Below, one piece after another: positions 5,703 through 51,731 of a stretch of 55,600 nucleotides of DNA. The notes under the pieces were generated by a model. The model was given only the letters and a program-made list of their open reading frames with translations. It searched no databases and was not told the origin of the DNA. Positions within the stretch are counted from its first letter, which is position 1; each line of letters begins with the position of its first letter. This DNA is from Paracoccaceae bacterium (GTDB lineage Bacteria; Pseudomonadota; Alphaproteobacteria; Rhodobacterales; Rhodobacteraceae). Position numbers and translations under genes: made by a program. The stretch spans positions 1 to 55,600 of the forward strand of contig JASJCC010000003.1 of the NCBI GenBank assembly GCA_030066175.1. Direction: 5' to 3'.

Positions 5703-6698
5703 ATGACAGAGCCAAAAGGCATCCCCACGAAAGAACTGTCTATTCCTTCGACGGCAGTTTTCATCGATGGCGATTGGATTAGAGTTGCGGCGAGGCACCT
5801 CAGAATAGATGTGGATTTTTTGACACTGGCCGATCTTCTTCGGTCCTATTTTGGCAAAGATACAGAAACCCACTTCTTCGGCAGCGTTTTGCCAGGAGAC
5901 GAGAAAGCTGGAGGCCTTTTTGACAAGTTGAAATCCAATGGGGTCAAAGTTGAGGTTTTTGATCTCGTCGATAATGCGGACGGACGCTTGATCAGTAAAG
6001 GTCTCGATGTGGCGATGAGTCTGCGCGCCGCAACGCTCCCCACCTATTTCGATCGCGTCGCCATATTGTCTGGCGACAATGATTTTGTGCCTCTGTTCGA
6101 CCTCCTTCAAGGGAAAGGTATATCTACTGTTCTCATTTCTCTTCCAATAGTATCGGGGAAACTCCTACATTCCTCGGCGACCCATTTTATTAGCCTTGAA
6201 GATTTCCTTGGAAGGGCAAAAAGTCATAGTGCCGAGAATATACCGCCTCGACCTGCTAACCAACCGTTCGGTGATATGTATGTCGAGAAAGATGAGCATT
6301 TTGAGCCATACCTTCAACTCAGAGAGTTGTTTTTGGAATCCAACTATCAGATAGTTGTTATTGATCAATACATTGACTGGCAGATTTTCGAGATGATTAG
6401 GCTTACAAAAAAGGAGGTGAAAATATGCATTCTTACAAATCGAATTCAGGAACCAGATTATCAAGTAATGGTTGAAAAGCTGCGCCGCGAAGGTCGAATT
6501 CTCTGTTTGTATCGAACTCGAGACTTTCATGATCGATACCTCCGAGTTGATGATCAATGGTGGCATAGCGGACACTCATTCAAGGACTTGGGAACAGCCG
6601 ACTCACGACTAAGCATTGTCACCGATAAAGAATTCACTGAGAAGCTCGAAGCCCGCCAAGCAGATTCAATCCGGACTGCCATACAGCTTTGCACCTAA
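5703..6698 (+). CDS. NYN-domain (PIN-like) nuclease fused to a PLD-like C-terminal domain
   Basis: A 331-residue protein with AAGGAG 10 bases before its ATG. Residues about 17-165 form an NYN/LabA-like PIN-fold domain: A-V-F-I-D-G-D-W (D22, D24), then K-G-L-D-V-A-M-S-L (D102), then I-L-S-G-D-N-D-F (D125, D127). This is the acidic set expected of metal-dependent RNases. Residues about 195-320 resemble a phospholipase-D-like module: V-V-I-D-Q-Y-I-D near 218, and F-H-D-R-Y-L-R-V-D (275-283) followed by W-H-S-G-H-S-F-K-D-L-G. H-D-R replaces the H-K-D of true PLD enzymes and only one such motif is present. Known: NYN domains act in RNA cleavage, and PLD-like tails occur in defence and regulatory proteins. 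Inferred: a stand-alone RNase that may serve defence or stress. It stands alone between an IS element and an opposite-strand gene. Confidence 0.75.
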   Translation: MTEPKGIPTKELSIPSTAVFIDGDWIRVAARHLRIDVDFLTLADLLRSYFGKDTETHFFGSVLPGDEKAGGLFDKLKSNGVKVEVFDLVDNADGRLISKGLDVAMSLRAATLPTYFDRVAILSGDNDFVPLFDLLQGKGISTVLISLPIVSGKLLHSSATHFISLEDFLGRAKSHSAENIPPRPANQPFGDMYVEKDEHFEPYLQLRELFLESNYQIVVIDQYIDWQIFEMIRLTKKEVKICILTNRIQEPDYQVMVEKLRREGRILCLYRTRDFHDRYLRVDDQWWHSGHSFKDLGTADSRLSIVTDKEFTEKLEARQADSIRTAIQLCT

Positions 6699-8063: not shown

Positions 8064-8096
8064 AGCGATGCCAAAACCTCGCGTTTTGGCATTGCT
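8064..8096. repeat. Imperfect 14-bp inverted repeat with 5-bp spacer
   Basis: AGCGATGCCAAAAC, spacer CTCGC, then GTTTTGGCATTGCT: the 14-base arms match except at one position. There is no T-run after it, so it is not a typical terminator. It lies about 125 bases upstream of the 8223 start and could be an operator or a recombinase-type site. Confidence 0.55.
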
Positions 8097-25592: not shown

Positions 25593-28172
25593 TCACAGAA
25601 TCTCTATTAGACCCGCCAGCATTTCTGATTCAATGCCTCCACTGAAGACCAGGGAATTGTCTTCGGAGAATGTAAGTGCGTAGTCATTGCCGAGCTGACT
25701 GCCGAAGGTTTGAATAATCTGGTCCCCATTGAGACTTCCTGCCCAAAGGTCGCCATCTAATTGCAAACGATCGACGGATGTCTTGAAGTCCGCGATCCGG
25801 TCGTGTCCGCTTTTGAAGACAAACGTATCAGCGAGTGTTCCACCGCGGAGAAAGTCGTTACCCGCTCCTCCAGCAAGCGTGTCGAGACCTTGACCTCCAT
25901 AGAGTGTATCGTTTCCGGACCCGCCTTCAATTAGATCATTGCCCGTGCCTCCGTAGACCTGATCGTGCCCACCGCCGCCATAATGGAAATCCGCCCCCTC
26001 GTTTCCGTACAGCGTATCGTCGTCATTGTCGCCGAAGAGTTGATCGATCCCCGAGCCGCCATAGAGCGCATCGCGTCCGGTCCCACCCCAAAGCCAGTCG
26101 GCACCCTGATTTCCGTATACCTCGTCGTCGTCGGCATCACCGTAGATCGAGTCAACTCCTGTGCCTCCCGACGCGTAGTCATCTCCATCACCGCCCATTA
26201 GTTTGTCGGCGCCTGAACTCCCATGGAGCCTGTCATTGCCACTGCCGCCAAAGAGTAAGTCCCAACCGCTGTGCCCAACCAAGAAGTCGTTTCCGCCGTC
26301 GCCGTTTAGCGAGTCAATACCCTCCCCGCCACGTAGGCTGTCACTACCAGACCCGCCATGCAGAGCATCTTCTCCCGAATTGCCGTAGATCTCATCGTTT
26401 CCGCTATTGCCGTACAACGAGTCGGCCCCTTTGCCGCCGCGAAGCATGTCGTTGCCATCACCGGCACTGAAGTTGTCGGCGCCAACTCCGCCATTGTATT
26501 CAGTGGAAGTGCCTTCTGAACCTTCAGAACTAGGATTGGGATTAGGATTGGGGTCTAAATTCGATTTTTCAAAAACAAAGCGGACCGTCTCAAAATCGTT
26601 GATGAATTCATACTCGAATGTCCCGTCGGCTTTGATTTCGACATCCACCTCGGCTACTACGGGTACTTCAAAAAGACGCCTAAACAAATAAAGATCTTTG
26701 TCAGGCATAGAGGCGGAGTTTTCGTTATAGAATTCTCTCCAGGCCGATGAATCCATTACGGTCCGAACCGACACGGCCGTCACCGAGCCTATCGAGGCCC
26801 AGTCCGAGATATCGTACTCCTGCACAAGCCGGCCGGAGCCGCTGGAACGATAGCCGTCAATGTCGGTCACACTTGAGAACAAGACATACCTGTCATCACC
26901 CTCGAAAGCATAGGAATTCACGGCGCCTGCACCGTCGCGCGTTTCCCAATTGTAGTAGGTCGCATTCCAGAGGCCTTGGTCGTCGAGGTTGCCTTCAAGC
27001 AAGCTCGTTCCGGGAAGGCTCTCCGCCATCAATTTCAGTACTTGGCCGCCATGGCTTAGGTCAGCATCATTCTCATCGTTTGCCCAATGCCACTTAACGC
27101 CGTCAGTCGGCCGTTGATAGGAGCTGGCATTGTGTTTCGGATCAACCGTCCCCCACAGCGCTAGGTCGTCATATCCCAATGAGACCAGTTGGCTAAACAC
27201 ATCTAGCGTGCCCGAACCTTGCCGCGCTCCAATGTCATTATTCTCAAGCCGGAACGGTTCGCGAAGGTCTAGAAGCTCTTCATAGCCCTTGCTAGGGCTG
27301 CCGACCCCCCAAGCCGAGGCGTACAGCTTCACATCGCCCCAGTTGTCGCCGAGCGCCTCTTTCCACGAGTTGAGTATTTCTTTTTCGAGACCATAGTCAA
27401 AACTCGACGCAGAGCCGACGAGGCCCGCGTGGCTGACCAGTTGATCAATGTGAGAAAGAACATCTGATTGATGTGCAAATTTCGATGCGCCTGTTTCATT
27501 GTCAGAGAATCCGTCCAAATTGTTTATTATAAGGTCATTTGAGAAGTGGTTAATGCCCATCTGAACGGCAATTTCGATTCCTGACAGCCCCTGAATGCCG
27601 GAGTGATTGGCGAACTCAACAAGCGCACGATGGGCGAGCGTGCCGTAACTCCAACCCCCATAGCCCATCCAATTTGTCTCGTTTCCAATCTCAAGAGTGA
27701 TCGTATTGCCGCCAGCGAGGAAGTCTATTGCGGTGTCATAATACCCGTCGCGCGCCGAAAGCCGGTCAAAGAAGGTCCGGATATCTCCAGTGAAGTCCTC
27801 CAAAGCGTCCCGTTGAGCATCAGTGATATCGCCGGGAATCGGCAACCCGCCGGCCTTGTGGAATCCGAATGTCGGAAGGATCATCGAAAAGTCGTGGTCG
27901 GTATCCAGCAGACTCCGCAATGTGTTTGTCAGACCTTTGTGGGAGGGTCCGATTAGGACATCGGGATTCATCAGATCGTATTGTCCCTGTCCGCTCTTGT
28001 TTTCCGCCATCGTTCCGCCCGGATAGCGCATGGCGCCCTCGAAATAGCCTTTGCTTTCCTGCTTGTGGTTCTTTAGGTCTGTGAATGCGGTGAAAATATC
28101 GCCAAAAGAACCAGCAGAGACCTGCGGTGCTCCATGAATGCTGCTGGCGACTGTTCCTAGTAGTTTTTTCAT
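25593..28172 (-). CDS. Secreted RTX protein with N-terminal glycoside-hydrolase-like domain
   Basis: 859 residues from the ATG at 28172 (AGAGG upstream); the longer frame from a TTG lacks a ribosome-binding site. Residues about 20-400 look like a clan GH-A-type TIM barrel: F-E-G-A-M-R-Y-P-G-G-T-M-A-E-N, then T-L-E-I-G-N-E-T-N-W (E165, candidate acid/base) and later W-G-T-V-D-P-K-H-N-A. Residues about 400-540 form a beta-rich module. A linker of N-P-N-P-N-P then S-S-E-G-S-E-G-T follows. About 22 RTX nonapeptides lie at about 565-780 (G-G-S-G-N-D-x-L-x type). The end (D-T-F-V-F-K-S-G-H-D-R-I-A-D-F, then a hydrophobic C-terminus L-A-G-L-I-E-I-L) is typical of type I secretion substrates. Likely a secreted polysaccharide-active enzyme; the substrate is unknown. 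Confidence 0.82.
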   Translation of the reverse strand: MKKLLGTVASSIHGAPQVSAGSFGDIFTAFTDLKNHKQESKGYFEGAMRYPGGTMAENKSGQGQYDLMNPDVLIGPSHKGLTNTLRSLLDTDHDFSMILPTFGFHKAGGLPIPGDITDAQRDALEDFTGDIRTFFDRLSARDGYYDTAIDFLAGGNTITLEIGNETNWMGYGGWSYGTLAHRALVEFANHSGIQGLSGIEIAVQMGINHFSNDLIINNLDGFSDNETGASKFAHQSDVLSHIDQLVSHAGLVGSASSFDYGLEKEILNSWKEALGDNWGDVKLYASAWGVGSPSKGYEELLDLREPFRLENNDIGARQGSGTLDVFSQLVSLGYDDLALWGTVDPKHNASSYQRPTDGVKWHWANDENDADLSHGGQVLKLMAESLPGTSLLEGNLDDQGLWNATYYNWETRDGAGAVNSYAFEGDDRYVLFSSVTDIDGYRSSGSGRLVQEYDISDWASIGSVTAVSVRTVMDSSAWREFYNENSASMPDKDLYLFRRLFEVPVVAEVDVEIKADGTFEYEFINDFETVRFVFEKSNLDPNPNPNPSSEGSEGTSTEYNGGVGADNFSAGDGNDMLRGGKGADSLYGNSGNDEIYGNSGEDALHGGSGSDSLRGGEGIDSLNGDGGNDFLVGHSGWDLLFGGSGNDRLHGSSGADKLMGGDGDDYASGGTGVDSIYGDADDDEVYGNQGADWLWGGTGRDALYGGSGIDQLFGDNDDDTLYGNEGADFHYGGGGHDQVYGGTGNDLIEGGSGNDTLYGGQGLDTLAGGAGNDFLRGGTLADTFVFKSGHDRIADFKTSVDRLQLDGDLWAGSLNGDQIIQTFGSQLGNDYALTFSEDNSLVFSGGIESEMLAGLIEIL

Positions 28173-28651
28173 CGTGACCTCTACAGCTCGACCTCTTCCG
28201 ACCGGATTTCCGATCCGGCGGAAAACTGTGCTGTTGGTCACATCACTTTTTGCTTTGGCGCTATATTGTTTGGAATTCGGCAGCTTGTTGAATATCAATT
28301 GGGATTTGATTTTTCTTTAATCTCTTAAATTTTGTTCATTTCAATATTCAGTCTTTTTTCTTGAAAATTCTTATTCAAAATTCAAAAAAATCGCAGATTC
28401 TCTGAAATACTTGATGAAGCGTGTGATTCACGGAAATTTCTGTGGGCTTCGGGCAAGGGTTAATATCAGTGATCCGGTAGATCATTTATCTCGACTGCCC
28501 CCCTCAGAGCCGAGGGGCTCGCCAACGAGTAGGGTTGGCAATCTCAAGTCGCCAAGGAGCGTTGAGCACCTTCTTATGCAAACGTTGGCTCTGTGGGGCC
28601 GCCAGCGCCGGTGGGAAAAGGCAGGTTGAGGTATTCTCCGGCCAGGGCATG

Positions 28652-29429: not shown

Positions 29430-29468
29430 ACGCCGCGCCTCCCACTCCGGGGCGCGGCGTGTTTCGTT
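29430..29468 (+). terminator. GC-rich hairpin resembling a rho-independent terminator
   Basis: ACGCCGCGCC, an 11-base loop, then GGCGCGGCGT, followed by GTTTCGTT. The stem is perfect over 10 bp but the T-run is weak. No gene clearly ends just before it. Confidence 0.45.
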
Positions 29469-31115: not shown

Positions 31116-32555
31116 ATGAGCAGTTTCAACTGGCGGCCCGACCTCAGTGACCCAGACATCCAGTGCGATCTTCCGCCCCGGGACGGCATCTATTTCAACC
31201 TGATCTCCTACTGCCGACATATTGGGCTGAGGAAGACCGAACCTGACACAGGAACATGGGTTGCCCGCGTCCGAAAAAAGGACGGCGGCTACAAGCAACA
31301 TGCTCTTGGCTATGCCTGGCTCAAAGGCGAGCCGATCCTCAGCTTCGACGACGCTCTTATCCGCGCAGAGGCATGATTTCAGACGGAGCCGGTTCGAGCG
31401 GTTGCCTCTGAGCCCTACCAGATCGGCTCAAAACGCTGCCTCAACATCTGCCCGATTGGCTCCGTCTATTCCGTGGGACACGCCTTGGCTGACTATCTCG
31501 ACTGGAAACGCATTGCCGCGACGCGATCGCATTTCGAGACGCTGGTCAGCCTGATCAATTATCATCTGGTTCCGCGCGTGTCGCAGATACCGGCTGAGGA
31601 TTTCAACGGCCGGCACTTCTACGACCTCGCCATGGATGTTATCGAGACGCCTCCCAAGATGGGGCAAAAGACGCCTGGCCCACGGGTGCCGATTCAACGT
31701 CTGTCAGAAGACGAACTGCGGCGTCGTAAGAAGACGCTGAACGCGTTGATCAGCATCCTGCGGGGAGCGTTCGATATTGCCTGGGAACGCGGTGCGCTCC
31801 ATACCGACAGACCCAAACGATGTCTGCGCCGGGTTCCGAAAGTGGACCGTCCACGCGTGATCTTTCTTGATCGCACCGAGTGCCGGTTGCTAATCGGTGC
31901 CTGTCATCCAGATCTCAAGACACTTGTCAGAGCGGCGCTCTACACAGGCTGCCGCGCGAATGAACTCATTCAGATGCGGGTTGGTGACGTCAGCGACCGG
32001 ATGAACTCCGTCTTTATCTCCTCGCCAAAAGGGCGGCGCAGCCGTCACGTATTCCTACCATCGGAGGGTGTCGTGTTTTTCCGTGCGTTGGCCAACGGGC
32101 GGCTGTCATCCGACCGGCTATTCCGAAAGGAAAATGGACGGATTTGGGGCGGCGAGTACAAGTCCTACTTCCAGGCGGCGCGCGGCCAAGCGAGGTTACC
32201 TGCCTCCCTGACCTTTCACAGGCTCCGCCACACCTATGCCAGCCAGCTCGTTCAATCGGGCGCATCGCTGATGATCGTCGCCGAGCAGTTGGGACATGCA
32301 AACACTCAAACGGTCAGCGCCACCTACGGGCACCTTGTGACGCAGCATCGGGAGTCCGAGATCGAGCGATGTTTCGAACCACTCGCCAGCCCGAATTCGC
32401 AGAAATTACCCGATTGTCTTGCAACAAAAGCCGAAAGCCCATCTGACCGAAGCGATCTACCCAGGTTCATTCATCGAGAGGTCACCTCGTGGCCGAGATC
32501 GAACTTTTCGCGCTTGTCCGGTCCACTTCTTCAGGAACTCCGGAATTCCCGGTAG
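31116..32555 (+). pseudogene. Phage-type tyrosine integrase with one in-frame TGA
   Basis: One frame of about 480 codons runs from an ATG at 31116 to the stop at 32553-32555, broken by TGA at 31374-31376 in A-E-A-*-F-Q-T-E-P. A tryptophan (TGG) or arginine is plausible there. The N-terminal part has an AP2-like arm domain (T-W-V-A-R-V-R-K-K-D-G-G-Y-K-Q-H-A-L-G-Y). The core-binding domain follows, then the catalytic domain with T-G-C-R-A-N-E-L (Arg), H-R-L-R-H-T-Y-A (H-x-x-R), L-G-H-A-N-T-Q-T and the nucleophile in S-A-T-Y-G-H-L. Downstream of the stop a GTG at 31473 could still give a 360-residue protein with core-binding and catalytic domains but no arm domain, so residual activity is possible. 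Confidence 0.82.
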
Positions 32556-34249: not shown

Positions 34250-36703
34250 ATGCAGAGACCGATCCAAATCTGCCTTACGCTTGTTGCTGTCGTTATCGCG
34301 ACCGTTTGGGGTGGAGTATTCGGGTTTCCTCCTAATGGCATTTCGACGTTTTGGCCTCCGAACGCCATTCTGTTTGCCTCAATCCTGAGCCTAAGTTCTC
34401 GTGACCGTTTGACGTGTTTGGTCCTCGCCTATCCCGCCTACCTGGGCGCAGAACTCTGGATTGGGTTTGATTTTGTCTCTTCTCTTGTCTTTTCAGGCGC
34501 CAATTGCCTCGCGGTTGGATTAGGATATGGAGTCATGCGGCTGCTCGGTGATGTACCGACCGGATTGCGGGACCTTCGTAGATTGCTATCGCTCTTCCTG
34601 GCCGTTTCCGCTGCGTCGGTTGTTGGCGGAATTATTGGCGCAGGTTGGGTCGCCATATCGGGTGGAGCGTTCGCTCAGACTGTCCTCAGGTGGGGGTTCG
34701 CGGACTTAATCGGGTATCTAGTCTTTGCGCCTGTGGTTTTGACGCTGTCGGATTGGGTTGGTTGGTCCCGCAAGTCGGGCACTCTCGAAAGAACGGAGGC
34801 GGCCGTTTCGACGGTGCTCGTGATCGTCCTGTCCCTCTTCGCATACGGCCCGCTTCACCCGTTCGGGGTCGATTTTCGAGGTATGCAATTTCTGCCGATC
34901 CCTGTGATCTTGTGGATGGCGCTTCGGTTGGGGCCCAAAGGTGCTGCTCTGAGTCTGTTGGCGGTTTCGTTCATTGCTCTTACCTACGCGATCAACGGGT
35001 TTGGTCCGTTTTCGGACCTCTCCCCGGAGAACAATGTCGCCTCTCTGCAGATCTTCATAACCTCTATTGTGATCGCAACCTTTTTGGTCGCGGTCCTTCT
35101 CCAAGAACGGGACAGTGCGCTCCGCCTGCTTTCGGAGAAGGACCAACAGGAAAAGGAGGCGCGCTACCGAGCACTCGTCGACCTGGCGACCGATGGGATC
35201 ATGATTTTCAACGTAGATGACGGTCGTTTCATCGAGGCCAACCCAAAATCGGCGCGGATCTTTGGGTATTCGACCGTGGATCTGCTCAACTCCATTGGTC
35301 CGGCTGATCTTAGTCCTGAATTCCAAACTGATGGCCGCCGTTCGGATGAGGCGTCACGCGACTATCTCATGCAGGCGTTGGAAGGAGAATTCCCGACATT
35401 CGAATGGATGCATCGCAATCGCGACGGCCAGAACATACCCTGCGAAATCGAGCTCGCACGATTTCCCGATCCGGAAAGGAACCTTGTCCGCGCCAGCATC
35501 ACCGACGTGACTGAAAGGAAAGAAGCCGAGGAGCGCCGCCGAGACCTCGAAGAACAACTGATGCAGTCGCAAAAGTTGGAAGCGGTCGGTCAGATGACCG
35601 GGGGTGTTGCCCATGATTTCAACAACTTGCTGAATGTCATCCTAGGCAATCTCGAACTGTTGCGGGACGAGACAATGGACGCCGAGAGCGTCAAGCTCAT
35701 CGATGCCGCGATCGGTGCCACCGCCAGGGGTGCCGACCTAACGAAGAACATGCTTAGCTTCGCGCGGCGCGCGGATCTGCATCCAACCAGATTGGATTTG
35801 TCGGACATAGTCCAACACATGGACAATTGGATTGCGCGCACGATCCCAGCGAGCATCCGAGTCGAGAAGTCTCTTGAAGCCGATCTTTGGCCAGTAGAAG
35901 CGGATCGGTCCACAACGGAAAGCGCGTTGCTCAACCTGATGATCAATGCGCGTGACGCGATCACCGATGGTGGTGTCATCACTCTAGAAACATCTAACGT
36001 TGTTCTCGATCATCCACTAGAGAGCGGTATTGGCGATGATCTGGACGCAGGACGCTACGCGTTGCTTGCTGTGAGCGATACAGGCGCGGGAATTCCCGAA
36101 GACAACATCCAGCACGCTTTTGAGCCATTCTACACGACAAAGGGCCTCGCTGAAGGAAGTGGGTTGGGACTCTCGATGGTCCACGGCTTCATGCGGCAGT
36201 CCGGAGGTGGCGCAAGAATCTACTCAGAGGTCGGCATTGGAACGACGGTCAAACTATACTTCCCGGCTTCGCGTAGTACTGAAGAAGAACGCGAAATAAC
36301 GGAACCGACTGGCGCCATCTCAAAACCTGATATCGAAGCGCGCATTCTGATCGCTGAAGATCAAGCGGATGTCCTCGACCTGCTCGTGCGTATACTAGAA
36401 AACGAAGGGCACACTGTGGTTCCTTCGCGAACCGGCGATCAGGCTCTAGGGTTGTTTAAGGCAGATCAGACTTTCGATCTTTTGGTCACCGACATCGTTA
36501 TGCCAGGTAGATTGCAGGGACCGGACCTGGCGAGAAGAATCAGAAGTATCAACTCATCTATCCCTGTGGTGTTCATGTCGGGCTATGCTCGGGAGGCGAC
36601 AATCCATGGCAACGGCCTGCGAGACTCCGACATCAGGTTGATGAAACCTGTCGCAAAGAAAGACTTGATTGCTGCGGTGCAAGAAGCCTTGTCCGCCCGT
36701 TAG
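34250..36703 (+). CDS. Hybrid sensor histidine kinase (MASE1-PAS-HisKA-HATPase-REC)
   Basis: 817 residues from the ATG at 34250; the AAAGGG upstream is slightly distant, and GTG 34238 is the alternative. Residues about 1-285 hold eight or so membrane helices of MASE1 type (F-W-P-P-N-A-I-L, then G-F-G-P-F). A PAS domain spans about 310-425. The HisKA box is G-G-V-A-H-D-F-N-N-L-L with His455. The HATPase has N-L-M-I-N-A-R-D-A (N-box), D-T-G-A-G-I-P and G-S-G-L-G-L-S-M. The C-terminal receiver has L-V-T-D-I-V-M-P-G with Asp748 as phosphoacceptor and K near M-K-P. All catalytic residues are present. It senses an unknown membrane-associated signal and signals by phosphorelay; no HPt or output regulator is adjacent. 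Confidence 0.9.
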   Translation: MQRPIQICLTLVAVVIATVWGGVFGFPPNGISTFWPPNAILFASILSLSSRDRLTCLVLAYPAYLGAELWIGFDFVSSLVFSGANCLAVGLGYGVMRLLGDVPTGLRDLRRLLSLFLAVSAASVVGGIIGAGWVAISGGAFAQTVLRWGFADLIGYLVFAPVVLTLSDWVGWSRKSGTLERTEAAVSTVLVIVLSLFAYGPLHPFGVDFRGMQFLPIPVILWMALRLGPKGAALSLLAVSFIALTYAINGFGPFSDLSPENNVASLQIFITSIVIATFLVAVLLQERDSALRLLSEKDQQEKEARYRALVDLATDGIMIFNVDDGRFIEANPKSARIFGYSTVDLLNSIGPADLSPEFQTDGRRSDEASRDYLMQALEGEFPTFEWMHRNRDGQNIPCEIELARFPDPERNLVRASITDVTERKEAEERRRDLEEQLMQSQKLEAVGQMTGGVAHDFNNLLNVILGNLELLRDETMDAESVKLIDAAIGATARGADLTKNMLSFARRADLHPTRLDLSDIVQHMDNWIARTIPASIRVEKSLEADLWPVEADRSTTESALLNLMINARDAITDGGVITLETSNVVLDHPLESGIGDDLDAGRYALLAVSDTGAGIPEDNIQHAFEPFYTTKGLAEGSGLGLSMVHGFMRQSGGGARIYSEVGIGTTVKLYFPASRSTEEEREITEPTGAISKPDIEARILIAEDQADVLDLLVRILENEGHTVVPSRTGDQALGLFKADQTFDLLVTDIVMPGRLQGPDLARRIRSINSSIPVVFMSGYAREATIHGNGLRDSDIRLMKPVAKKDLIAAVQEALSAR

Positions 36704-44627: not shown

Positions 44628-45809
44628 ATGTTCCAGACGGCGCCGATCCGTGCGGCTTCTCAATCCGACCTTACGCGGGAGATGTCCGACCGTCTACAGA
44701 CCGCGCTGACTACACATCTCGAGCAGGCCTACGCCCCGGACCAGCGCAAGTTTTTGAGACTATTCAGCGCAACAGAGACTGCCGATCTCTTGGGTGTGAC
44801 CGGTCAGTTCCTCCGGAAGTGTCATAGCGATGGCACCCTGCCAGAACCCGAAGTGATCCGAAACGGGCGTCGGTTCTACTCTGGCGAAGAGCTCTTTGCG
44901 GCGCGCCGACTTCTCGAAGGCGGCTCCCGCACGGCCGGGAAGTATCTGCCGGGCCGACGCGTCGATGACAAGTTACAAGTCATACAATTGATGAACTTCA
45001 AAGGCGGGTCTGCAAAGTCGACTTCGGCCATCCATCTCTGTCACTACTTGGCGCTCAACGGATACCGCGTGCTGGCAGTCGATCTCGACCCTCAGGGGAG
45101 CCTTACCGGGTTTTGCGGCATACAGACCGAGCTCGAATTCGATGGGGCCTCCATCTACGACGCTTTGCGCTACGACGATCCTCTGCCAATTCGGGAGGCG
45201 ATCGCCGACACCTATTTTCCAGGTCTTGACCTTGCCCCCGCGAAGCTTGTGCTGAGCGAATTCGAAACGGAAACTGCGGTGAACGCCGGGCGTGGCGTGG
45301 CTTTCTTTGAGCGCCTGAGCGCGGCCCTCGCCACGGTCGAAGACGACTATGACGTCGTCGTGATTGACAGTCCGCCCGCGCTCGGCTTTCTGACGCTGAC
45401 AGGTCTCTATGCAGCGACTTCCGTCATTGTCCCAATGACGCCCAGCATGCTCGATCTTGCTTCGACACAGCAGTTCATCGAGATGACCTCGGCCTACCTC
45501 GGCGTGATTGAAGAGACCGGCGTCCAACTCGATCATGACTTTTTTTCGTTTCTGATCACAAGGGACGATCCATCGGACATTCCGAGTCAGCAGATTGTCA
45601 GTCTGATGCGTGCGCTCTTCCAGGACCGTGTGGTCGGCGCGACGATGTTGCGTAGTACGGCAGTTGCAGATGCGGCGATGCTGAAGATGTCCATTTACGA
45701 AGTCGCGCGGGCGGAGATGACCCGTTCGACGTACGACCGCGCGCGCGGCAGCGTGGATGCGGTCGGGGCGGAGGTCGCGTCGATGATCCAGCGGGCATGG
45801 GGGCGGTAA
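44628..45809 (+). CDS. repA: Plasmid partition ATPase RepA (ParA family)
   Basis: 393 residues. The N-terminal 110 residues contain a winged-helix/MerR-like DNA-binding region (F-S-A-T-E-T-A-D-L-L-G-V-T-G-Q-F-L-R-K) used in autorepression. The deviant Walker A is F-K-G-G-S-A-K-S-T, where the usual G-V-G-K-S-T reads S-A-K-S-T. Walker A' follows as L-A-V-D-L-D-P-Q-G-S-L-T, Walker B as D-V-V-V-I-D-S-P-P-A-L. RepA segregates plasmid copies with RepB and parS, and with RepB represses the operon. The start at 44628 is the first ATG after the TGCGC inverted repeat. repB starts 2 bases after its stop. Confidence 0.93.
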   Translation: MFQTAPIRAASQSDLTREMSDRLQTALTTHLEQAYAPDQRKFLRLFSATETADLLGVTGQFLRKCHSDGTLPEPEVIRNGRRFYSGEELFAARRLLEGGSRTAGKYLPGRRVDDKLQVIQLMNFKGGSAKSTSAIHLCHYLALNGYRVLAVDLDPQGSLTGFCGIQTELEFDGASIYDALRYDDPLPIREAIADTYFPGLDLAPAKLVLSEFETETAVNAGRGVAFFERLSAALATVEDDYDVVVIDSPPALGFLTLTGLYAATSVIVPMTPSMLDLASTQQFIEMTSAYLGVIEETGVQLDHDFFSFLITRDDPSDIPSQQIVSLMRALFQDRVVGATMLRSTAVADAAMLKMSIYEVARAEMTRSTYDRARGSVDAVGAEVASMIQRAWGR

Positions 45810-45811
45810 TC

Positions 45812-46801
45812 ATGGCAATGGGCAAGAACAAGACCGGGATCATGGCCGCGATCACTGCGGCCACGGAAGCCGGGGCGGGGCCAACGGAAGCGCGGGAGCG
45901 AGCACAGCGAACTCTGCCCCGCGGTACGATCGGGTCTGTCCGAGCTGGGCTTGGGGGCATTCAGGATATCGATACATCTCTAGTGCTGTCGTGGGGCCCG
46001 AAAGACAGGCTCGATGTTGAGTTAACAGCTGTTAACACCGGTGATACATCCGAAACGATCCAGGAGCTTGTCAGTAGCATCCAATCCGCCGGTCAGCAGG
46101 TGCCAGTTTTGCTGCGGCCTGCGAAAGAGAAGGACGGACATTTTGAAGTGATCTACGGTCGGCGCCGGATCCTCGCGTGCCGCAAACTGGGCATGCCTGT
46201 CAAGGCCCTGATCCGGACCCTCGACGACACCGAAGCCTTGATGGCAAAAGGGCTGGAAAACGCCAGCCGCACGGAACTCAGCTATTACGAGCGTGCCCGA
46301 TTTGCCGAAGCGATCCTCGCGCAGGGCCATACCCGCGCCGAGGTCTGTCAAGCACTTGCCATCAGCAAGAACACGCTCTCGCAACTCGAGCGGATAACGC
46401 GTCTCGTACCGGCCGCCATCGGCGACGGGATCGGGGCGGCCCCCGGAGCGGGGCGCCCGAAATGGATGGCGCTTGCGGGCGCGTTCGAAAATAATCAGAT
46501 CGACGAAGTGCGTGCACTGAACGTGATCGATGCATGCCCGGCAGAGGCCGCCTCTGACGATCGGCTGGAGGCTGTCCTCAAAGACACTGTCCGTCGCGGA
46601 CCGCGTGAGCGCGCCGCAGATGGGCGGAGCCCGATACAAGGGGTGCAAATCAAGTCGGGCAAATCGTCGATCACGCTTTCGGTTGCCAAGGCCGGCGATC
46701 TGAAAGGCTTTGCGGAATGGCTGGATCGTCATCTTGACGGTCTGATCGCGGAATCCTTCGAACGATACCAGACAGAGCATCGCGCAGGTGAGGGCGGTTA
46801 A
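45812..46801 (+). CDS. repB: Plasmid partition protein RepB (ParB family)
   Basis: 329 residues starting M-A-M-G-K-N-K-T-G. ParB-type domain: T-I-Q-E-L-V-S-S-I-Q-S-A-G-Q-Q-V-P-V-L, F-E-V-I-Y-G-R-R-R-I-L-A-C, E-N-A-S-R-T-E-L-S-Y-Y-E-R-A-R-F. HTH: T-R-A-E-V-C-Q-A-L-A-I-S-K-N-T-L-S-Q-L. RepB binds parS and loads RepA. Unusually, one parS copy (46021-46036) lies inside this gene and codes for L-T-A-V-N. Another (46797-46812) spans its stop codon TAA at 46799-46801, so coding and binding functions are superimposed. It follows repA with 2 bases between. Confidence 0.93.
   Translation: MAMGKNKTGIMAAITAATEAGAGPTEARERAQRTLPRGTIGSVRAGLGGIQDIDTSLVLSWGPKDRLDVELTAVNTGDTSETIQELVSSIQSAGQQVPVLLRPAKEKDGHFEVIYGRRRILACRKLGMPVKALIRTLDDTEALMAKGLENASRTELSYYERARFAEAILAQGHTRAEVCQALAISKNTLSQLERITRLVPAAIGDGIGAAPGAGRPKWMALAGAFENNQIDEVRALNVIDACPAEAASDDRLEAVLKDTVRRGPRERAADGRSPIQGVQIKSGKSSITLSVAKAGDLKGFAEWLDRHLDGLIAESFERYQTEHRAGEGG
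46021..46036. promoter_or_regulatory. parS: parS-type palindrome, copy 2 (inside repB)
   Basis: GTTAACAGCTGTTAAC within the repB reading frame, identical to copies 1 and 3, about 210 bases into the gene. Confidence 0.9.
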
Positions 46802-46812
46802 CAGCTGTTAAC
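46797..46812. promoter_or_regulatory. parS: parS-type palindrome, copy 3 (over the repB stop)
   Basis: GTTAACAGCTGTTAAC; bases 46799-46801 of it are the repB stop codon. It marks the left edge of the repB-repC spacer. Confidence 0.9.
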
Positions 46813-46997
46813 CGTATGAGAGAGGCAACGAGCAGAAAGGAGGATGGCAGAAAAAGAAACCCCCGAAACCGAGGTCTCGAGGGCTGCAGCGCATGAAGCG
46901 CAACTTGTTTTGACACAACAACCTTAGCAGCCCGCGAATCACCAAACAATGAAAAACGTCCTCGGGCGAACAGGTTTTCTTTTCCTGCCGAACAAAG
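46813..46997 (-). ncRNA. Probable antisense ctRNA (inc-alpha) region between repB and repC
   Basis: In repABC plasmids a small antisense RNA is made from this spacer on the opposite strand and limits RepC translation. Here the 185-base spacer, read on the minus strand, ends in CCTCG-GTTT-CGGGG followed by GTTTCTTTTTC (about 46845-46874), a good terminator, preceded by stem-forming sequence. The exact start and promoter were not settled. The position is typical; the RNA itself is inferred. Confidence 0.6.
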
Positions 46998-48350
46998 ATG
47001 GAACATTTGGAGAGGGCTCCGGGTGGAGCAACCGCGAAATTCGCTTTGCGGGACGATAGAGGTTTGCCTGGACCTAGCGGATGGCGCAAAGCGACCGCTG
47101 GCCTCGCACGGGCAGAGCGCCTAGCAGAAGCGGGTCTGTCTGCAGGCGTCCCGAAATCGCGGGCATTCGTGGCCGTCAAGCGCATTGGCACGCATGTCGG
47201 CCTGAAGGCCGGCGATTTGATGCTCCTGGACACGCTAGGGGCGTTCACTCAAACACAGGACTGGGAGCAGGGCAGGCGGCCTATTGTTTGGGCCTCCAAC
47301 GCCTATCTCATGGAACAGACCGGCTTTTCTCTGTCCGCGCTCAAGCGCCACGCACGGCGTCTGGCGGAAGCGGGCGTCATCGCCTTCAAGGACAGCCCCA
47401 ACGGCAAGCGATGGGGCAAGAGGGATGAGGACGGCATAATCATCGAGGCTTACGGCTTCGATCTGTCTCCGCTTGCGGCCCGCGCCGAGGAGTTCGAGCA
47501 GCTCCAAGCAGAATTGCAAGCCGAACGCGAGCTCTGCCAGTTCCTGAAGCGCCAGATCACGGTCTCGCGGCGGATGATCCGGGCGCGGCTCGAGGCGGCG
47601 TTGAGCGGGGCGCTGAGGGGCCCCTGGGCGCAGCTGCAAGAGGTCTTCGAGGAGCTTCTCGGCAAGCTGCCGCGGCGCATCGTAGCCTCGCAGACGCTGG
47701 ACCGGCTTCTGGGCTGGTTCAACGATCTCCAGGAGCGCGTGGAAGCGGCTTTTCTCAAGGCCACGCGTCCGGCCGAGCCTGCGGAAAAACAGTCTCTAAC
47801 GCAGGGAGAAACGACCGAGAAGACTCGAAAAATGAACCCCACGGAGGTCAATTCTGAACCCGATATACAAATTACAAACCATCCTGATCCTGTAATTAGT
47901 AATCGCTCAGAAAATGAGCAAGCGGCGGGCGTGTTGGGAGACCCCGAACCGGGGGCTCCGATTGAGAGGCCAGCTGAAGATGAGCCGCAAACGGAGGCCA
48001 AACCGCGCGGTGTCGCGCTGGACGTGTCGACAATCATGCAGGCCTGTCCGGAATTCGCGACCTGGGCGCGGGATCTGGACGGATATTTGAAGGATTGGGG
48101 CGATGTCTACAGGGTCGCCGGTCGTCTCAGACCGATGATCGGCGTATCGGAACAGGCTTGGGCAGCGGCGCAAGAGGGTCTGGGTAAACAGGCCGCGACG
48201 GCAGCGATGGTTCTCGTTTTCGACAAGCATGCAAAGGGCGAAGTAGCGTCCCCGGGCGGGTATCTGCGCGGTATGGTCGAGAAGGCCGTGGCAGGGGAGT
48301 TGCATCTCGAGCGCAGCATCTATGGCCGGCTGAGCGGGCAGGCAGCGTGA
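46998..48350 (+). CDS. repC: Replication initiator RepC
   Basis: 450 residues starting M-E-H-L-E-R-A, close to the usual RepC length. N-terminal initiator region: F-V-A-V-K-R-I-G-T-H-V-G-L-K-A-G-D-L-M-L-L-D-T-L, then W-A-S-N-A-Y-L-M-E-Q-T-G-F-S-L-S-A-L-K-R-H, a winged-helix DNA-binding part. A coiled coil follows (E-E-F-E-Q-L-Q-A-E-L-Q-A-E). An AT-rich coding stretch at about 47830-47920 probably holds the origin. The C-terminal domain has C-P-E-F-A-T-W-A-R, D-W-G-D-V-Y-R-V-A-G-R-L-R-P-M and G-Y-L-R-G-M-V-E-K-A. It initiates replication of its own plasmid in cis. Its translation is expected to be controlled by the upstream ctRNA. Confidence 0.93.
   Translation: MEHLERAPGGATAKFALRDDRGLPGPSGWRKATAGLARAERLAEAGLSAGVPKSRAFVAVKRIGTHVGLKAGDLMLLDTLGAFTQTQDWEQGRRPIVWASNAYLMEQTGFSLSALKRHARRLAEAGVIAFKDSPNGKRWGKRDEDGIIIEAYGFDLSPLAARAEEFEQLQAELQAERELCQFLKRQITVSRRMIRARLEAALSGALRGPWAQLQEVFEELLGKLPRRIVASQTLDRLLGWFNDLQERVEAAFLKATRPAEPAEKQSLTQGETTEKTRKMNPTEVNSEPDIQITNHPDPVISNRSENEQAAGVLGDPEPGAPIERPAEDEPQTEAKPRGVALDVSTIMQACPEFATWARDLDGYLKDWGDVYRVAGRLRPMIGVSEQAWAAAQEGLGKQAATAAMVLVFDKHAKGEVASPGGYLRGMVEKAVAGELHLERSIYGRLSGQAA
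47825..47920. promoter_or_regulatory. oriV: AT-rich tract inside repC, candidate oriV
   Basis: Within GC-rich repC this stretch is markedly AT-rich (for example TATACAAATTACAAACC and TGTAATTAGTAATC), and the protein there is a low-complexity linker. In characterised repABC plasmids the origin lies in such a tract inside repC. Confidence 0.6.
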
Positions 48351-48390: not shown

Positions 48391-48405
48391 GAGGAGACTT
48401 GCATC

Positions 48406-48663
48406 ATGGTGACACGCAACGTTGTTCTGACGGACACCCAGGATCAGCTGGTTCAGGCGCTGGTGGCCTCCGGTCGGTACCAGAACGTCAGCGAAGCCAT
48501 GCGTGCCGGTTTGCGTTTGCTGGAGCAGGAAGAGGCGCAGCTCGCCGGAATACGCGAGGGTCTGCTTGAAGGTCTGGCGCAGGCCAAGGCTGGCGATCTT
48601 GCCGAGGGGAGCGGCGACGATGCCATTCGTCGCGCATTCGCGAAAGCGCGCGCGGCCTCATGA
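48406..48663 (+). CDS. parD: ParD-type antitoxin (ribbon-helix-helix)
   Basis: 85 residues; GAGGAG 9 bases upstream of the ATG at 48406. N-terminal RHH fold: V-T-R-N-V-V-L-T-D-T-Q-D-Q-L-V-Q-A-L-V-A-S-G-R-Y-Q-N-V-S-E-A-M-R-A-G-L-R-L-L, matching CopG/ParD antitoxins. The acidic, Ala-rich C-terminal tail would wrap the toxin. Binds and neutralises ParE and represses the operon at the palindrome just upstream. Its stop TGA overlaps the toxin ATG (ATGA). Confidence 0.9.
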   Translation: MVTRNVVLTDTQDQLVQALVASGRYQNVSEAMRAGLRLLEQEEAQLAGIREGLLEGLAQAKAGDLAEGSGDDAIRRAFAKARAAS

Positions 48664-48995
48664 ACCGATCTCTGCGGCTGACGCGCCGCGCCGAAGCCAG
48701 CCTTGTCGAGATTGCCAGATGGACGATCGAGAATTTCGGCCTCGGGCAGGCCGAGCTTTACGAAGCTGAGCTGCTCAACCGTTGCGACGCGATCCTGAAC
48801 GGCCAGGCGCACAGCCGGAGCTGTGCCGTTCTGGTGGATGACGCGGACGACTTGCGGTTCGTCAGGGCAGGGGAGCATTTCCTGGTGTTTATGGATCGGC
48901 CCGATGAAGTCGTCATCGTCGACATTCTGCATTCCCGCAGCGATCTGCCCCGCCATGTCGCCGCACTGAATGCGCTCAAGAACAAAGGTTCCTGA
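48660..48995 (+). CDS. parE: ParE-type toxin (RelE/ParE superfamily)
   Basis: 111 residues beginning M-N-R-S-L-R-L-T-R-R-A-E-A-S-L-V-E-I-A-R-W-T. It has the ParE pattern: A-x-x-D/S-L-x-E-I, then Y-E-A-E-L-L-N-R-C, R-F-V-R-A-G-E-H-F-L-V-F (the usual Y-R is F-V here), D-E-V-V-I-V-D-I-L-H-S-R-S-D-L-P-R-H. ParE toxins poison DNA gyrase. With the antitoxin it kills or stops plasmid-free daughters. The four-base overlap with parD gives translational coupling. Confidence 0.9.
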   Translation: MNRSLRLTRRAEASLVEIARWTIENFGLGQAELYEAELLNRCDAILNGQAHSRSCAVLVDDADDLRFVRAGEHFLVFMDRPDEVVIVDILHSRSDLPRHVAALNALKNKGS

Positions 48996-49002
48996 CCCGC
49001 GG

Positions 49003-50121
49003 CTAGAGCCCTGCGGCCTTCGTCAAGTTCACCCGGAACCGGTCGCGGCGACGCTGATAGCGCCGGGTCATCTCTGCCGAAGAATGTCCGAGCTGCTTCT
49101 GGACGTAGCGTTCGTCGACTTCGGCGGAACTGGCGAGTCCGGCCCGCAGCGAATGACCCGAGAATAGGGCGAGGCGGTCTTTCTCTGGCAGCTCCGAGCG
49201 GATCCCGGATTTCAGGACGGTGGTTTTGATGAGGCGGGCGACGTGTTTGTCCGACAGTCGGGCCTCGAGGGCGCGTTTGCCGTCGCGGGAGGCGCGCACG
49301 AACACCGGCCCGAAGTCGATCTTCGCAAAGTGCTGCCATTGCTCGAGGGCATGGACGGGACAGGTCTTGTCGGACGATCCGCGACCGATCTCGACCTCGC
49401 GCCAGCCCGTCTTGGCGTTCAGTGTCAGCACCGCACCATCATCGATGATCTCGACCCAACCGCCGCTGTCAGGGGTGTCGTCCTTGCTGACATCGAGGCT
49501 GACGATTTCGCTTCGTCGCAACCCGCCAGCATATCCCAGGAGCAGAATCGCCCGGTCCCTGAGCCCGCGCAGGTCGTAGGGCAGGGTGGCGACCATGGCC
49601 AAAATATCCTCAGGTAAGATCGCTTCCTTCTGGGCAGGTGGCCTAGCATGTTTGCGCTTGATCCCGGCCAGCACGGTGGCGATGTGCCGATCCTTGCGAT
49701 CGAGCGCAAAGCCGCGCTGCGCGTAGTTCCAGGCGAGACCGGACAGACGTCGATCAATCGTGCTTACGGAGAGGGCAGGGGACCCATTTGTCGGTGCGGC
49801 CAGGTCGGTCAAGTAGAGGCCGATCATCTCTGGCGACGGGGGCATGGGCTCGGTTCCTTTCATCCGACACCAACGGACGAAATGCTTCCAGTCAGCGGCA
49901 TAGGCCTTGTTCGTGTTCTCGGCCGTTGAGGCCACGGCGTAATCGCGGGCGCTTTCAACAAGGCGGTCGAGCGCGCCGGAGCCGACCACGTTGGAGGGCA
50001 GGGCGATCGCGCCACCCTCCGCAGGTTCTCTCTCGTCGAGTTCTTGTTCGTTTGCCGTATCTAGAGATGCTGAGCTCGATTTCTCGTGCTCTGAGGGCTG
50101 GTTTTCGGGTGTGTCACTCAT
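49003..50121 (-). CDS. Tyrosine recombinase, XerC/D-like, probable plasmid resolvase
   Basis: 372 residues, full-length. The N-terminal 55 residues are acidic and Ser-rich. SAM-like core-binding domain at about 60-160 (A-E-N-T-N-K-A-Y-A-A-D-W-K-H-F-V-R-W-C). Catalytic set: Arg in G-G-L-R-R-S-E-I, H-S-L-R-A-G-L (H-x-x-R), L-G-H-S-S-A-E-M-T, and the nucleophile in R-R-Y-Q-R-R. This type is common on alphaproteobacterial plasmids, where it resolves multimers. An inverted repeat with 12-bp arms and a 7-bp spacer (50142-50172) lies 20 bases before the start codon and is the likely target. It converges on parDE. Confidence 0.87.
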   Translation of the reverse strand: MSDTPENQPSEHEKSSSASLDTANEQELDEREPAEGGAIALPSNVVGSGALDRLVESARDYAVASTAENTNKAYAADWKHFVRWCRMKGTEPMPPSPEMIGLYLTDLAAPTNGSPALSVSTIDRRLSGLAWNYAQRGFALDRKDRHIATVLAGIKRKHARPPAQKEAILPEDILAMVATLPYDLRGLRDRAILLLGYAGGLRRSEIVSLDVSKDDTPDSGGWVEIIDDGAVLTLNAKTGWREVEIGRGSSDKTCPVHALEQWQHFAKIDFGPVFVRASRDGKRALEARLSDKHVARLIKTTVLKSGIRSELPEKDRLALFSGHSLRAGLASSAEVDERYVQKQLGHSSAEMTRRYQRRRDRFRVNLTKAAGL

Positions 50122-50141: not shown

Positions 50142-50172
50142 TATGTCCGATAAGACAACATTATTGGACATA
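50142..50172. promoter_or_regulatory. 12-7-12 inverted repeat, candidate recombinase core site
   Basis: TATGTCCGATAA, spacer GACAACA, TTATTGGACATA: the arms match at 11 of 12 positions. The architecture (two arms around a 6-8 base asymmetric centre) is that of dif/lox-like tyrosine-recombinase sites. It lies between the recombinase and the divergent DUF1403 gene. An operator role is the alternative. Confidence 0.65.
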
Positions 50173-50247
50173 AAGGGGAGCTGCAGGGTGGGGCGGTTTC
50201 TACACTATATGGTAGGCAAAAGCGCCGCATTGCGATAGTGTTGTGGC

Positions 50248-51126
50248 ATGACATATGCCCGTGGCGACTTCGAAACCTTAGCCCGGATGCCGTCCTGGGT
50301 CACCTCTGCACGGCCCGAAACCCTTGAAGATGTGGCGTTTTTGTCGGGGGCTGCACTCAACCACCTGCATCTTGTGCTTCAGCACGACGAGGTCCCCCAA
50401 GGCTTATTGCGTGTGCGCCTGGCGCTGCGCGCGGCCGAGGCTTGCGTGGCGTTCTCGAGTCGGCCGGAAAGAATAGCGGAGTTGCGCGACGCGATCGCGT
50501 TCCTGCAGCCGGGCGACAGTCCCGGTCCGGCAGGCGAGATCTACGTGACGTGGCGGCGGGCGATCGAGCGCCCGATCTCGGCCAAGGCATTGGCTCGGGC
50601 ATTGCCTGACGTCGAGGCAGAGCAGATCGAAATGTGGCTCGACACGGGGCTGGGGGCTCCGGTTGCGCGCGCAGCGTTGGTGCTGCAGGCGGTTCTCGAG
50701 GATCGGCCGCGGGATCCCACCGCGGCATTGATCCTGGCGGATGCTGCGCTGGCCCAGGCGCTCGGCCGGAACCATGTCGTGCCGCTTTTTTCGCTCGGTC
50801 TCAAGCGCGGCGATTTGCGGAAGACGGGCGAAGACCTGCGGCTGGCCTGCCATCGGGGAGTTGTCGCGGCCCTGGCCGTAGCGATGCGCGAGGTGACTGA
50901 TCTGTCGCGAAGTGTGGCTCGGCTGAGGGAAATTGCACCCAAGCTGAGGGCAAGGGGCGCGGACGAAGCTATCGCGTTGTTCCTGACCCGGGACGCGTTG
51001 GCACCGGCGGCGCTCACCTCGTTGCGATCCGATCGCGCCGCGCGACGGTTCTGTGACCGGCTGGTTGATCTGGGCGTGGTGCGCGAGTTGACTGGCCGAG
51101 CCACTTTCCGGCTTTACGGGGTCTGA
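50248..51126 (+). CDS. DUF1403 family protein
   Basis: 292 residues beginning M-T-Y-A-R-G-D-F-E-T-L-A-R-M-P-S-W-V. Mostly helical, with the family's pattern F-L-S-G-A-A-L-N-H-L, V-P-Q-G-L-L-R-V-R-L-A-L-R-A-A-E-A-C, R-P-R-D-P-T-A-A-L-I-L-A-D-A-A-L-A, S-D-R-A-A-R-R-F-C-D-R-L-V-D-L-G. It is plasmid-borne and of unknown function. Its stop lies 2 bases before the scpB-like ATG, and the DUF1403-ScpB pairing suggests a shared role in plasmid chromatin or segregation. Confidence 0.82.
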   Translation: MTYARGDFETLARMPSWVTSARPETLEDVAFLSGAALNHLHLVLQHDEVPQGLLRVRLALRAAEACVAFSSRPERIAELRDAIAFLQPGDSPGPAGEIYVTWRRAIERPISAKALARALPDVEAEQIEMWLDTGLGAPVARAALVLQAVLEDRPRDPTAALILADAALAQALGRNHVVPLFSLGLKRGDLRKTGEDLRLACHRGVVAALAVAMREVTDLSRSVARLREIAPKLRARGADEAIALFLTRDALAPAALTSLRSDRAARRFCDRLVDLGVVRELTGRATFRLYGV

Positions 51127-51128
51127 GG

Positions 51129-51731
51129 ATGGCCAAGGATCATGCAGATCAGGCGCTGGACCGCGAACTGGACGACCTGCCACCAGAGCTGCGCTGGCGT
51201 GAATGGCTGCGCCGGATCGAGGCGGTGCTGTTCGCATCCGCTTCGCCGATTCCGAGTGAAGACCTTGCCCGCGTGGTGGGGCAGGGGGTCTCGGTCGATC
51301 TCATCATCGAGGACCTTGCCGCTGATCTTGAAGGACGCTCGTTTGAATTGGCTAAGGTTGCAGGTGGTTGGATGCTGCGCACCCGGCCGGCCTATGCACC
51401 AGCAATCCGGGCGGCCGCCGATGTCGGAGAGCAGGACCTTGATCTGCGCGAATACGACGTCGCGGTGCTCGCCGCCATCGCGTACCACCAGCCGATCACC
51501 CGGGACGGCTTGAAGGACATTTTCGGCAAGGAGATCAGTCGCGACCTGATCGGACGGTTGCATGCGCGGGGGCTGATCGGGACCGGACCGCGGTCGCCCC
51601 GGCGTGGGGCGCCCTACACTTATGTGACGACGGATCAGTTCCTCGTGGCCTTCGACCTGGAGTCGCTCCAGGACCTGCCGGACCGTGAACAGCTGGAGGA
51701 TGCAGGTGTTATGTCCGCAACCGGGACGTAA
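51129..51731 (+). CDS. scpB: Plasmid ScpB-like segregation and condensation protein
   Basis: 200 residues. Two winged-helix units of ScpB: R-R-I-E-A-V-L-F-A-S-A-S-P-I-P-S-E-D-L-A-R-V-V-G, then A-G-G-W-M-L-R-T-R, then A-V-L-A-A-I-A-Y-H-Q-P-I-T-R-D-G-L-K-D-I-F-G and L-H-A-R-G-L-I-G-T-G-P-R-S-P-R-R-G-A-P-Y-T-Y. Chromosomal ScpB bridges SMC and ScpA. No smc or scpA is present here, so it may use host SMC or act in plasmid maintenance alone. Confidence 0.87.
   Translation: MAKDHADQALDRELDDLPPELRWREWLRRIEAVLFASASPIPSEDLARVVGQGVSVDLIIEDLAADLEGRSFELAKVAGGWMLRTRPAYAPAIRAAADVGEQDLDLREYDVAVLAAIAYHQPITRDGLKDIFGKEISRDLIGRLHARGLIGTGPRSPRRGAPYTYVTTDQFLVAFDLESLQDLPDREQLEDAGVMSATGT

Follow-up and report, generated by a model that had tools for sequence, protein, structure and literature searches.

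Introduction

Like the site described here, the XerCD sites dif, cer and psi consist of palindromic arms round a short asymmetric centre (11-6-11 in dif), and cer and psi are accompanied by an accessory sequence at a fixed spacing. The Cre/loxP system of the phage-plasmid P1 resembles the present locus in other respects, as a single plasmid-borne tyrosine recombinase has its site (13-8-13 in loxP) adjoining the gene and dimer resolution is its likely role. A different association is found in the 'res site hunters' of the Tn402/Tn5053 type, TniABQ transposons that settle beside a resolution site and whose known targets are the res sites of serine resolvases. Such res-hunting elements are dealt with in PMC7765201.

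IntA, a tyrosine recombinase on the RepABC plasmids of Rhizobium etli CFN42, recombines attA and attD both in vivo and in vitro (Hernandez-Tamayo et al. 2016, PMC4928290). These att sites are 23 bp long and consist of two palindromic arms round a divergent centre, TCCGATAAGCATTACTTATCGGA (PMC4928290), and, according to PMC4928290 and, for earlier work, PMC3224233, IntA joins and separates p42a and p42d, fusion being its documented role. Famint11 and Famint18, the latter from plant-associated bacteria, were described as putative plasmid resolvases with a suspected part in dimer resolution (Van Houdt et al. 2012, PMC3414803); no site was known for either, and a resolution function received no additional support in that study (PMC3414803). 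As plasmid tyrosine recombinases they can be likened, by description alone, to the enzyme considered below.

Here, we analysed a 55,600-nt stretch of a Paracoccaceae bacterium contig (hereafter, the window) in which a preliminary description had proposed an unreported recombination site next to a plasmid tyrosine recombinase gene, and followed this element through related plasmids.

An inverted repeat upstream of the recombinase gene

The features of the locus, in window coordinates, are as follows.

44628..48350, plus strand: repABC replication and partition operon (neighbour)
48400..48663, plus strand: ParD-type antitoxin (neighbour)
48660..48995, plus strand: ParE-type toxin (neighbour)
49003..50121, minus strand: tyrosine recombinase, 372 aa, with catalytic R202, K237, H323xxR326, H346 and Y355 (Pfam PF00589; alignment)
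50142..50172, no strand: putative core recombination site, 12-7-12 (sequence; kept in relatives; natural crossover point)
50142..50153, no strand: recombinase-proximal arm TATGTCCGATAA (sequence; arm conservation mean 1.69 bits in 42 non-redundant loci)
50154..50160, no strand: 7-bp asymmetric centre GACAACA (TGTTGTC in recombinase orientation; family consensus GTTTGCA)
50161..50172, no strand: DUF1403-proximal arm TTATTGGACATA (sequence; A/G arm asymmetry in 39/42 loci)
50173..50247, no strand: fixed-length region from the site to the DUF1403 start, candidate accessory or regulatory sequence (75 bp in 51/59 loci)
50192..50226, no strand: second inverted repeat GGCGGTTT-N19-AAAGCGCC (found only beside the site in 80 loci; invariant positions)
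50248..51126, plus strand: DUF1403 protein, all-helical, with a weakly Fic-like predicted fold (PF07183, 1.5e-86; model)
51129..51731, plus strand: plasmid ScpB-like protein of the SMC-Scp subunit family (PF04079, 1.2e-35)

Direct reading of positions 50142-50172 bears out the geometry originally proposed: the 31-bp element TATGTCCGATAA-GACAACA-TTATTGGACATA has two 12-base arms matching at 11 of 12 positions (the right arm reads TATGTCCAATAA as its reverse complement) and an asymmetric 7-base centre. It lies, as had been stated, 20 bp before the start codon of the recombinase (ORF 49003-50121, start at 50121 on the minus strand), and the order repABC, ParDE, recombinase, site is likewise the one claimed. 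In 4000 random sequences of the same dinucleotide make-up and of 126 bp, the length of the intergenic region between recombinase and DUF1403, not a single 12-7-12 inverted repeat with one mismatch or fewer arose; the full window contains three such repeats, the core site included. The other two, at 8065-8095 and 29430-29460, are strong inverted repeats with a 7-base loop and are probably hairpins or terminators. When the window was searched without mismatches, either arm occurred once, and a half-site match at 35798 was dropped as being at chance level. The genome to which the window belongs has one copy each of the site and the recombinase; a search of it for a second site yielded none, the sole other match having three mismatches, which equals the control count.

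The catalytic set R...K...HxxR...H/W...Y of the recombinase is complete: in an alignment of 22 sequences, with relatives down to 59% identity, R202, K237, R326, H346 and Y355 are invariant and H323 is nearly so. Among solved structures, those closest to it in sequence are archaeal Xer, XerD and Cre, and each of these matches is weak. The match to Cre has an E-value of only 6e-4, the 12-7-12 geometry differs from that of loxP, and Cre/loxP lacks the repABC/ScpB linkage; the scores for XerC and XerD are 48 and 43 bits against equivalog cut-offs of 335 and 330, and, in contrast to XerCD/dif, the recombinase is plasmid-encoded here. A further, different tyrosine integrase gene (PF00589) occupies positions 31473-32555 of the window, and a 901-aa protein with twelve matches to RTX calcium-binding nonapeptide repeats is encoded at 25593-28298.

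On the opposite flank of the site, divergent from the recombinase, lies the DUF1403-ScpB operon, which, together with the second inverted repeat at 50192-50226, had been absent from the preliminary description. The idea that DUF1403 is a diverged ScpA kleisin was unsupported, as its model is all-helical with weak Fic-like matches (E 0.014, TM 0.44). Our literature search found no mention of DUF1403 and no paper linking ScpB with repABC plasmids.

Conservation of the site and its relation to the IntA att sites

Related recombinases were expected to carry the same 31-base pattern upstream, the site proposal being open to refutation by homologues devoid of a conserved inverted repeat. The homologues keep it: most of 80 related loci in genome contigs have TATGTCCAATAA-GTTTGCA-TTATCGGACATA at the equivalent place, and, among those without a match, several are contigs ending near the recombinase and a few have TniABQ genes there. 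Searching plasmids for the pattern returned 478 places in 460 records, about one per plasmid, from Rhodobacterales, Agrobacterium, Rhizobium and Sinorhizobium; the octopine Ti plasmid pTi15955, for instance, carries AACGTCCGATAA-TCTTGCA-TTATCGGACGTA. Non-mobilizable plasmids make up 222 of the 460 carriers, and identical sites are present on three plasmids of a single strain.

Over 42 non-redundant loci, mean conservation is 1.69 bits in the arms, 1.33 in the centre (mostly TTGC) and 0.52 in the recombinase-side flank. Even the single arm mismatch is kept, with A on the DUF1403 side and G on the recombinase side in 39/42 loci, and the window is alone among the 42 in having T at the fourth base of TTGC, which makes its centre atypical. 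In distant relatives, both arms have changed together, with symmetric compensating substitutions, GACC/GGTC in Bradyrhizobium (AACGACCGATAA/TTATCGGTCGTT) and GGTAA/TTACC in A. vitis (TATGTCCGGTAA/TTACCGGACATA).

The site had been thought unreported. This does not wholly hold for the site as a type, which is represented by the 23-bp attA/attD of IntA with the same core arms and a 7-bp centre; for the present recombinase family, our literature search found no description of a site. The pattern search recovered the reported att site on p42d exactly (5743-5765) and its p42a partner at 2595-2617, with one difference in the centre, beside the p42a integrase. The IntA att sites have 8-bp core arms TCCGATAA/TTATCGGA and the window reads TCCGATAA-GACAACA-TTATTGGA, with one arm substitution; in both systems, the site lies upstream of the gene. 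Since recombination at the IntA att sites was shown in vivo and in vitro, and the core arms and centre length are the same, the site type has an experimental precedent. IntA, taken as the p42a integrase beside the site, and the window recombinase are nevertheless only 29% identical over about 330 residues and differ in gene neighbourhood, which argues against orthology. Arms conserved over 12 bp, a TTGC-containing centre, the 75-bp partner region, DUF1403 and ScpB set the present system apart, and none of the last three was found beside the p42a integrase. It forms a variant of its own, more widely distributed, whose arms are longer and whose partner region is fixed.

A fixed 75-bp region on the DUF1403 side

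The distance from the site to the DUF1403 start is 75 bp in 51/59 loci and 76 bp in four; while the length of this stretch is fixed, its sequence has strongly diverged between loci. Within it lies the second inverted repeat, whose family form, GGCG(C/G)TTT-N19-AAACCGCC, adjoins the site in 45 of the 80 loci searched, without a further occurrence in any of them; in the window, its centre is about five helical turns from that of the core site. The distance to the recombinase, in contrast, is variable, with VapBC (in pTi15955 and relatives) or a TniABQ element sometimes in between, and a Yoonia plasmid carries a second site with DUF1403 and ScpB yet without an adjoining recombinase. The rigid unit is therefore the site, the 75 bp and DUF1403-ScpB. 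The placement beside the recombinase is accordingly true of the window, but structurally the site belongs to the DUF1403 side. Probably the 75-bp segment, with its second inverted repeat, serves both the site and the DUF1403-ScpB operon as an accessory and regulatory region. Among the elements described here, the rigid partner region with its locus-unique repeat, the linkage to DUF1403 and a plasmid ScpB, and the TniABQ transposons described below, whether placed beside the site or bearing the module themselves, are new.

Natural crossovers within the site

In many plasmid pairs, 0.3-6 kb of near-identical DNA stops inside the 31 bp, and locus pairs that are near-identical on one flank usually differ on the other, with the change-point in the site. 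Five loci (L016, L017, L018, L020 and L023) have 2.5-6.1 kb in common at >99.8% on the recombinase side, their left sides being strongly diverged from the site on; reciprocally, L062 and L068 have 4.9 kb in common on the DUF1403 side. Among the near-identical block ends within 2 kb, 21 of 76 fall in a 41-bp window at the site against 0.78 expected, although these pairs come from only eight clusters of loci and are non-independent, so that the binomial figure overstates the case. Near-identity begins 5 bp outside the site in the cluster of L021, L028 and L058, and a second peak of block ends, at +1290, corresponds to a transposon end.

Linkage across the site is lost. In a Mantel analysis of 50 loci, ScpB and DUF1403 distances correlate at 0.85-0.90 and DUF1403 and recombinase distances at 0.02; in the window, the start codons of the latter two genes are 126 bp apart. 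Left-arm bases track the left flank (0.29 and 0.37 versus 0.06), and centre bases 12-13 track both flanks (0.24 and 0.18). With centre base 18 and the outer part of the right arm, only the right flank is tracked, and weakly. This pattern places the exchange in or at the edges of the 7-bp centre, as expected of a tyrosine recombinase. Taken with the conserved repeat, these crossovers strongly support the original reading of the element as a core site of a tyrosine recombinase next to the recombinase gene; that the linked enzyme is the catalyst, and that it cleaves at these positions, is what we infer.

TniABQ transposons beside the site

In seven loci (L026, L043, L045, L059, L060, L082 and L084), the start of a TniABQ element lies 26 or 27 bp to the right of the site, counted from the edge facing the recombinase, with differing bases in between, and in one further locus the distance is 50 bp. 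A second TniABQ end with a matching 5-bp target duplication was not picked up by our script. This placement at a fixed short distance resembles the res hunting of Tn402-like elements, as if the site or its complex were the target, which here, unlike in Tn402/Tn5053, would be a tyrosine-recombinase site 26-27 bp off. In Pseudosulfitobacter pseudonitzschiae, the module lies inside an element with ends TGTCGCATTT/AAATGCGACA and the order TniA-TniB-TniQ-ScpB-DUF1403-site-tyrosine recombinase, a whole-module transposon seen in L085 and W02 (NZ_CP087067.1, about 90957-97578), and the same transposon right end lies at +1291 in many loci. A sequence that at first resembled a second site type, CATGAACGTAAT-AATATC-AATACGTTAGTG (L003, L024, L026, L031 and L032), turned out to be where an inserted TniABQ element ends. 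One of these loci, L024 from Shimia biformata, has the recombinase, TniABQ and repABC on a chromosome-sized contig of 3.1 Mb, which suggests an integrated plasmid.

Cointegrates

Two natural cointegrates, NZ_CP087085.1 and NZ_CP086905.1, come from different Pseudosulfitobacter strains, and each joins a 110-kb to an 87-kb plasmid (L088-L113). Their junctions differ, both lying inside the same shared 5.3-kb segment, and fit homologous recombination. They were rejected as direct proof of site-specific fusion: W01 joins elsewhere in the 5.3-kb segment, and in W03 the site is enclosed by a converted tract that starts 109-186 bp to its left and extends to 48 bp beyond its core start on the right. 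NZ_CP086905 (P. pseudonitzschiae, 197,667 bp) has two identical direct sites that divide it into arcs of 87,101 and 110,566 bp, the sizes of the free plasmids. That it was sequenced in fused form despite the two direct sites counts against efficient resolution.

Discussion

Very probably, in our view, the adjacent tyrosine recombinase exchanges strands at the 31-bp element, which would be its core site, and so resolves or fuses RepABC plasmids. Two protomers of the enzyme would bind each site, with strand exchange inside the 7-bp centre or at its edges; with one site per circular RepABC plasmid, dimers and cointegrates would be resolved, and by the reverse reaction plasmids with compatible sites would be fused. 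Over time, the DUF1403-ScpB side of one plasmid could thus be swapped with the recombinase-rep side of another. The 75-bp segment and its second inverted repeat would act as the accessory or regulatory region, and TniABQ transposons may use the site both as a target and as their own resolution module. For DUF1403 and ScpB, a part in accessory or topological control is our guess. Going further, the site, the second inverted repeat, DUF1403 and ScpB might form one topologically controlled complex whose ScpB-like member makes use of the host condensin and so couples recombination to chromosome organization, and which serves as a general exchange joint where RepABC plasmids of Alphaproteobacteria swap replication modules with cargo; we regard this as speculative and rather improbable.

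That the repeat is solely an operator, at which a dimeric regulator (perhaps the recombinase, DUF1403 or ScpB) controls divergent promoters while exchanges arise by homologous recombination, seems highly unlikely to us. The position between divergent genes, the fixed 75-bp spacing to DUF1403, which is typical of a promoter element, and the homologous appearance of the P. pseudonitzschiae cointegrates are in its favour; however, near-identity stops inside the 31 bp in eight clusters with the flanking homologous genes largely spared, linkage is lost only across the site, the site remains when VapBC or TniABQ parts it from the recombinase, and its core is the same in type as a proven att site. 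An operator role may exist in addition to recombination. Still less probable is the action of the host XerCD, rather than the linked plasmid recombinase, at a dif- or cer-like site: although XerCD is normally present in the host and 12-7-12 is near the 11-6-11 of dif, the site and the recombinase gene co-occur, lineages whose recombinases have diverged most have different arms, and the equivalent R. etli site is served by the linked IntA.

Two other explanations concern what the system is for. The module could primarily be the resolution system of a TniABQ transposon, with the plasmid-backbone copies as remnants, as the whole-module element between TGTCGCATTT and AAATGCGACA in P. pseudonitzschiae and the shared right end at +1291 would suggest; yet the window and most loci are without Tni genes or ends and have the module directly beside repABC or toxin-antitoxin genes, and we hold this origin to be unlikely. 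Somewhat better placed, albeit still doubtful, is the proposal that the main selected function is not dimer resolution but plasmid fusion for co-transfer (conduction), as proposed for IntA. The core is the same as that of the IntA att sites through which p42a and p42d are fused, flanks are freely exchanged between plasmids, and three plasmids of one strain have identical sites; on the other hand, the site is kept by non-conjugative plasmids (nearly half of the carriers being non-mobilizable), and one site per plasmid suits resolution. Given the single site per plasmid, the linkage to rep and toxin-antitoxin genes and the plasmid-coded enzyme, we infer that dimer and cointegrate resolution is the likeliest selected role, plasmid fusion being the other face of the same reaction. 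The initial assignment to a multimer-resolution system agrees with the gene order, whereas the sequence data themselves record exchange between plasmids, and two cointegrates persist.

In Rhodobacterales and Rhizobiales, the large plasmids are mainly RepABC replicons, Ti and symbiotic plasmids among them, and it was left undecided in 2012 if the tyrosine recombinases of these replicons act as resolvases (PMC3414803). With a defined 31-bp site, the question can be put to a direct test, and plasmids able to fuse or to exchange modules can be predicted. A further question, posed by the attached ScpB, is whether condensin and plasmid recombination are linked. Moreover, as linkage is lost across the site, the two halves of a plasmid seem to reassort freely there, in which case a plasmid phylogeny built on one side of the site would not describe the other.
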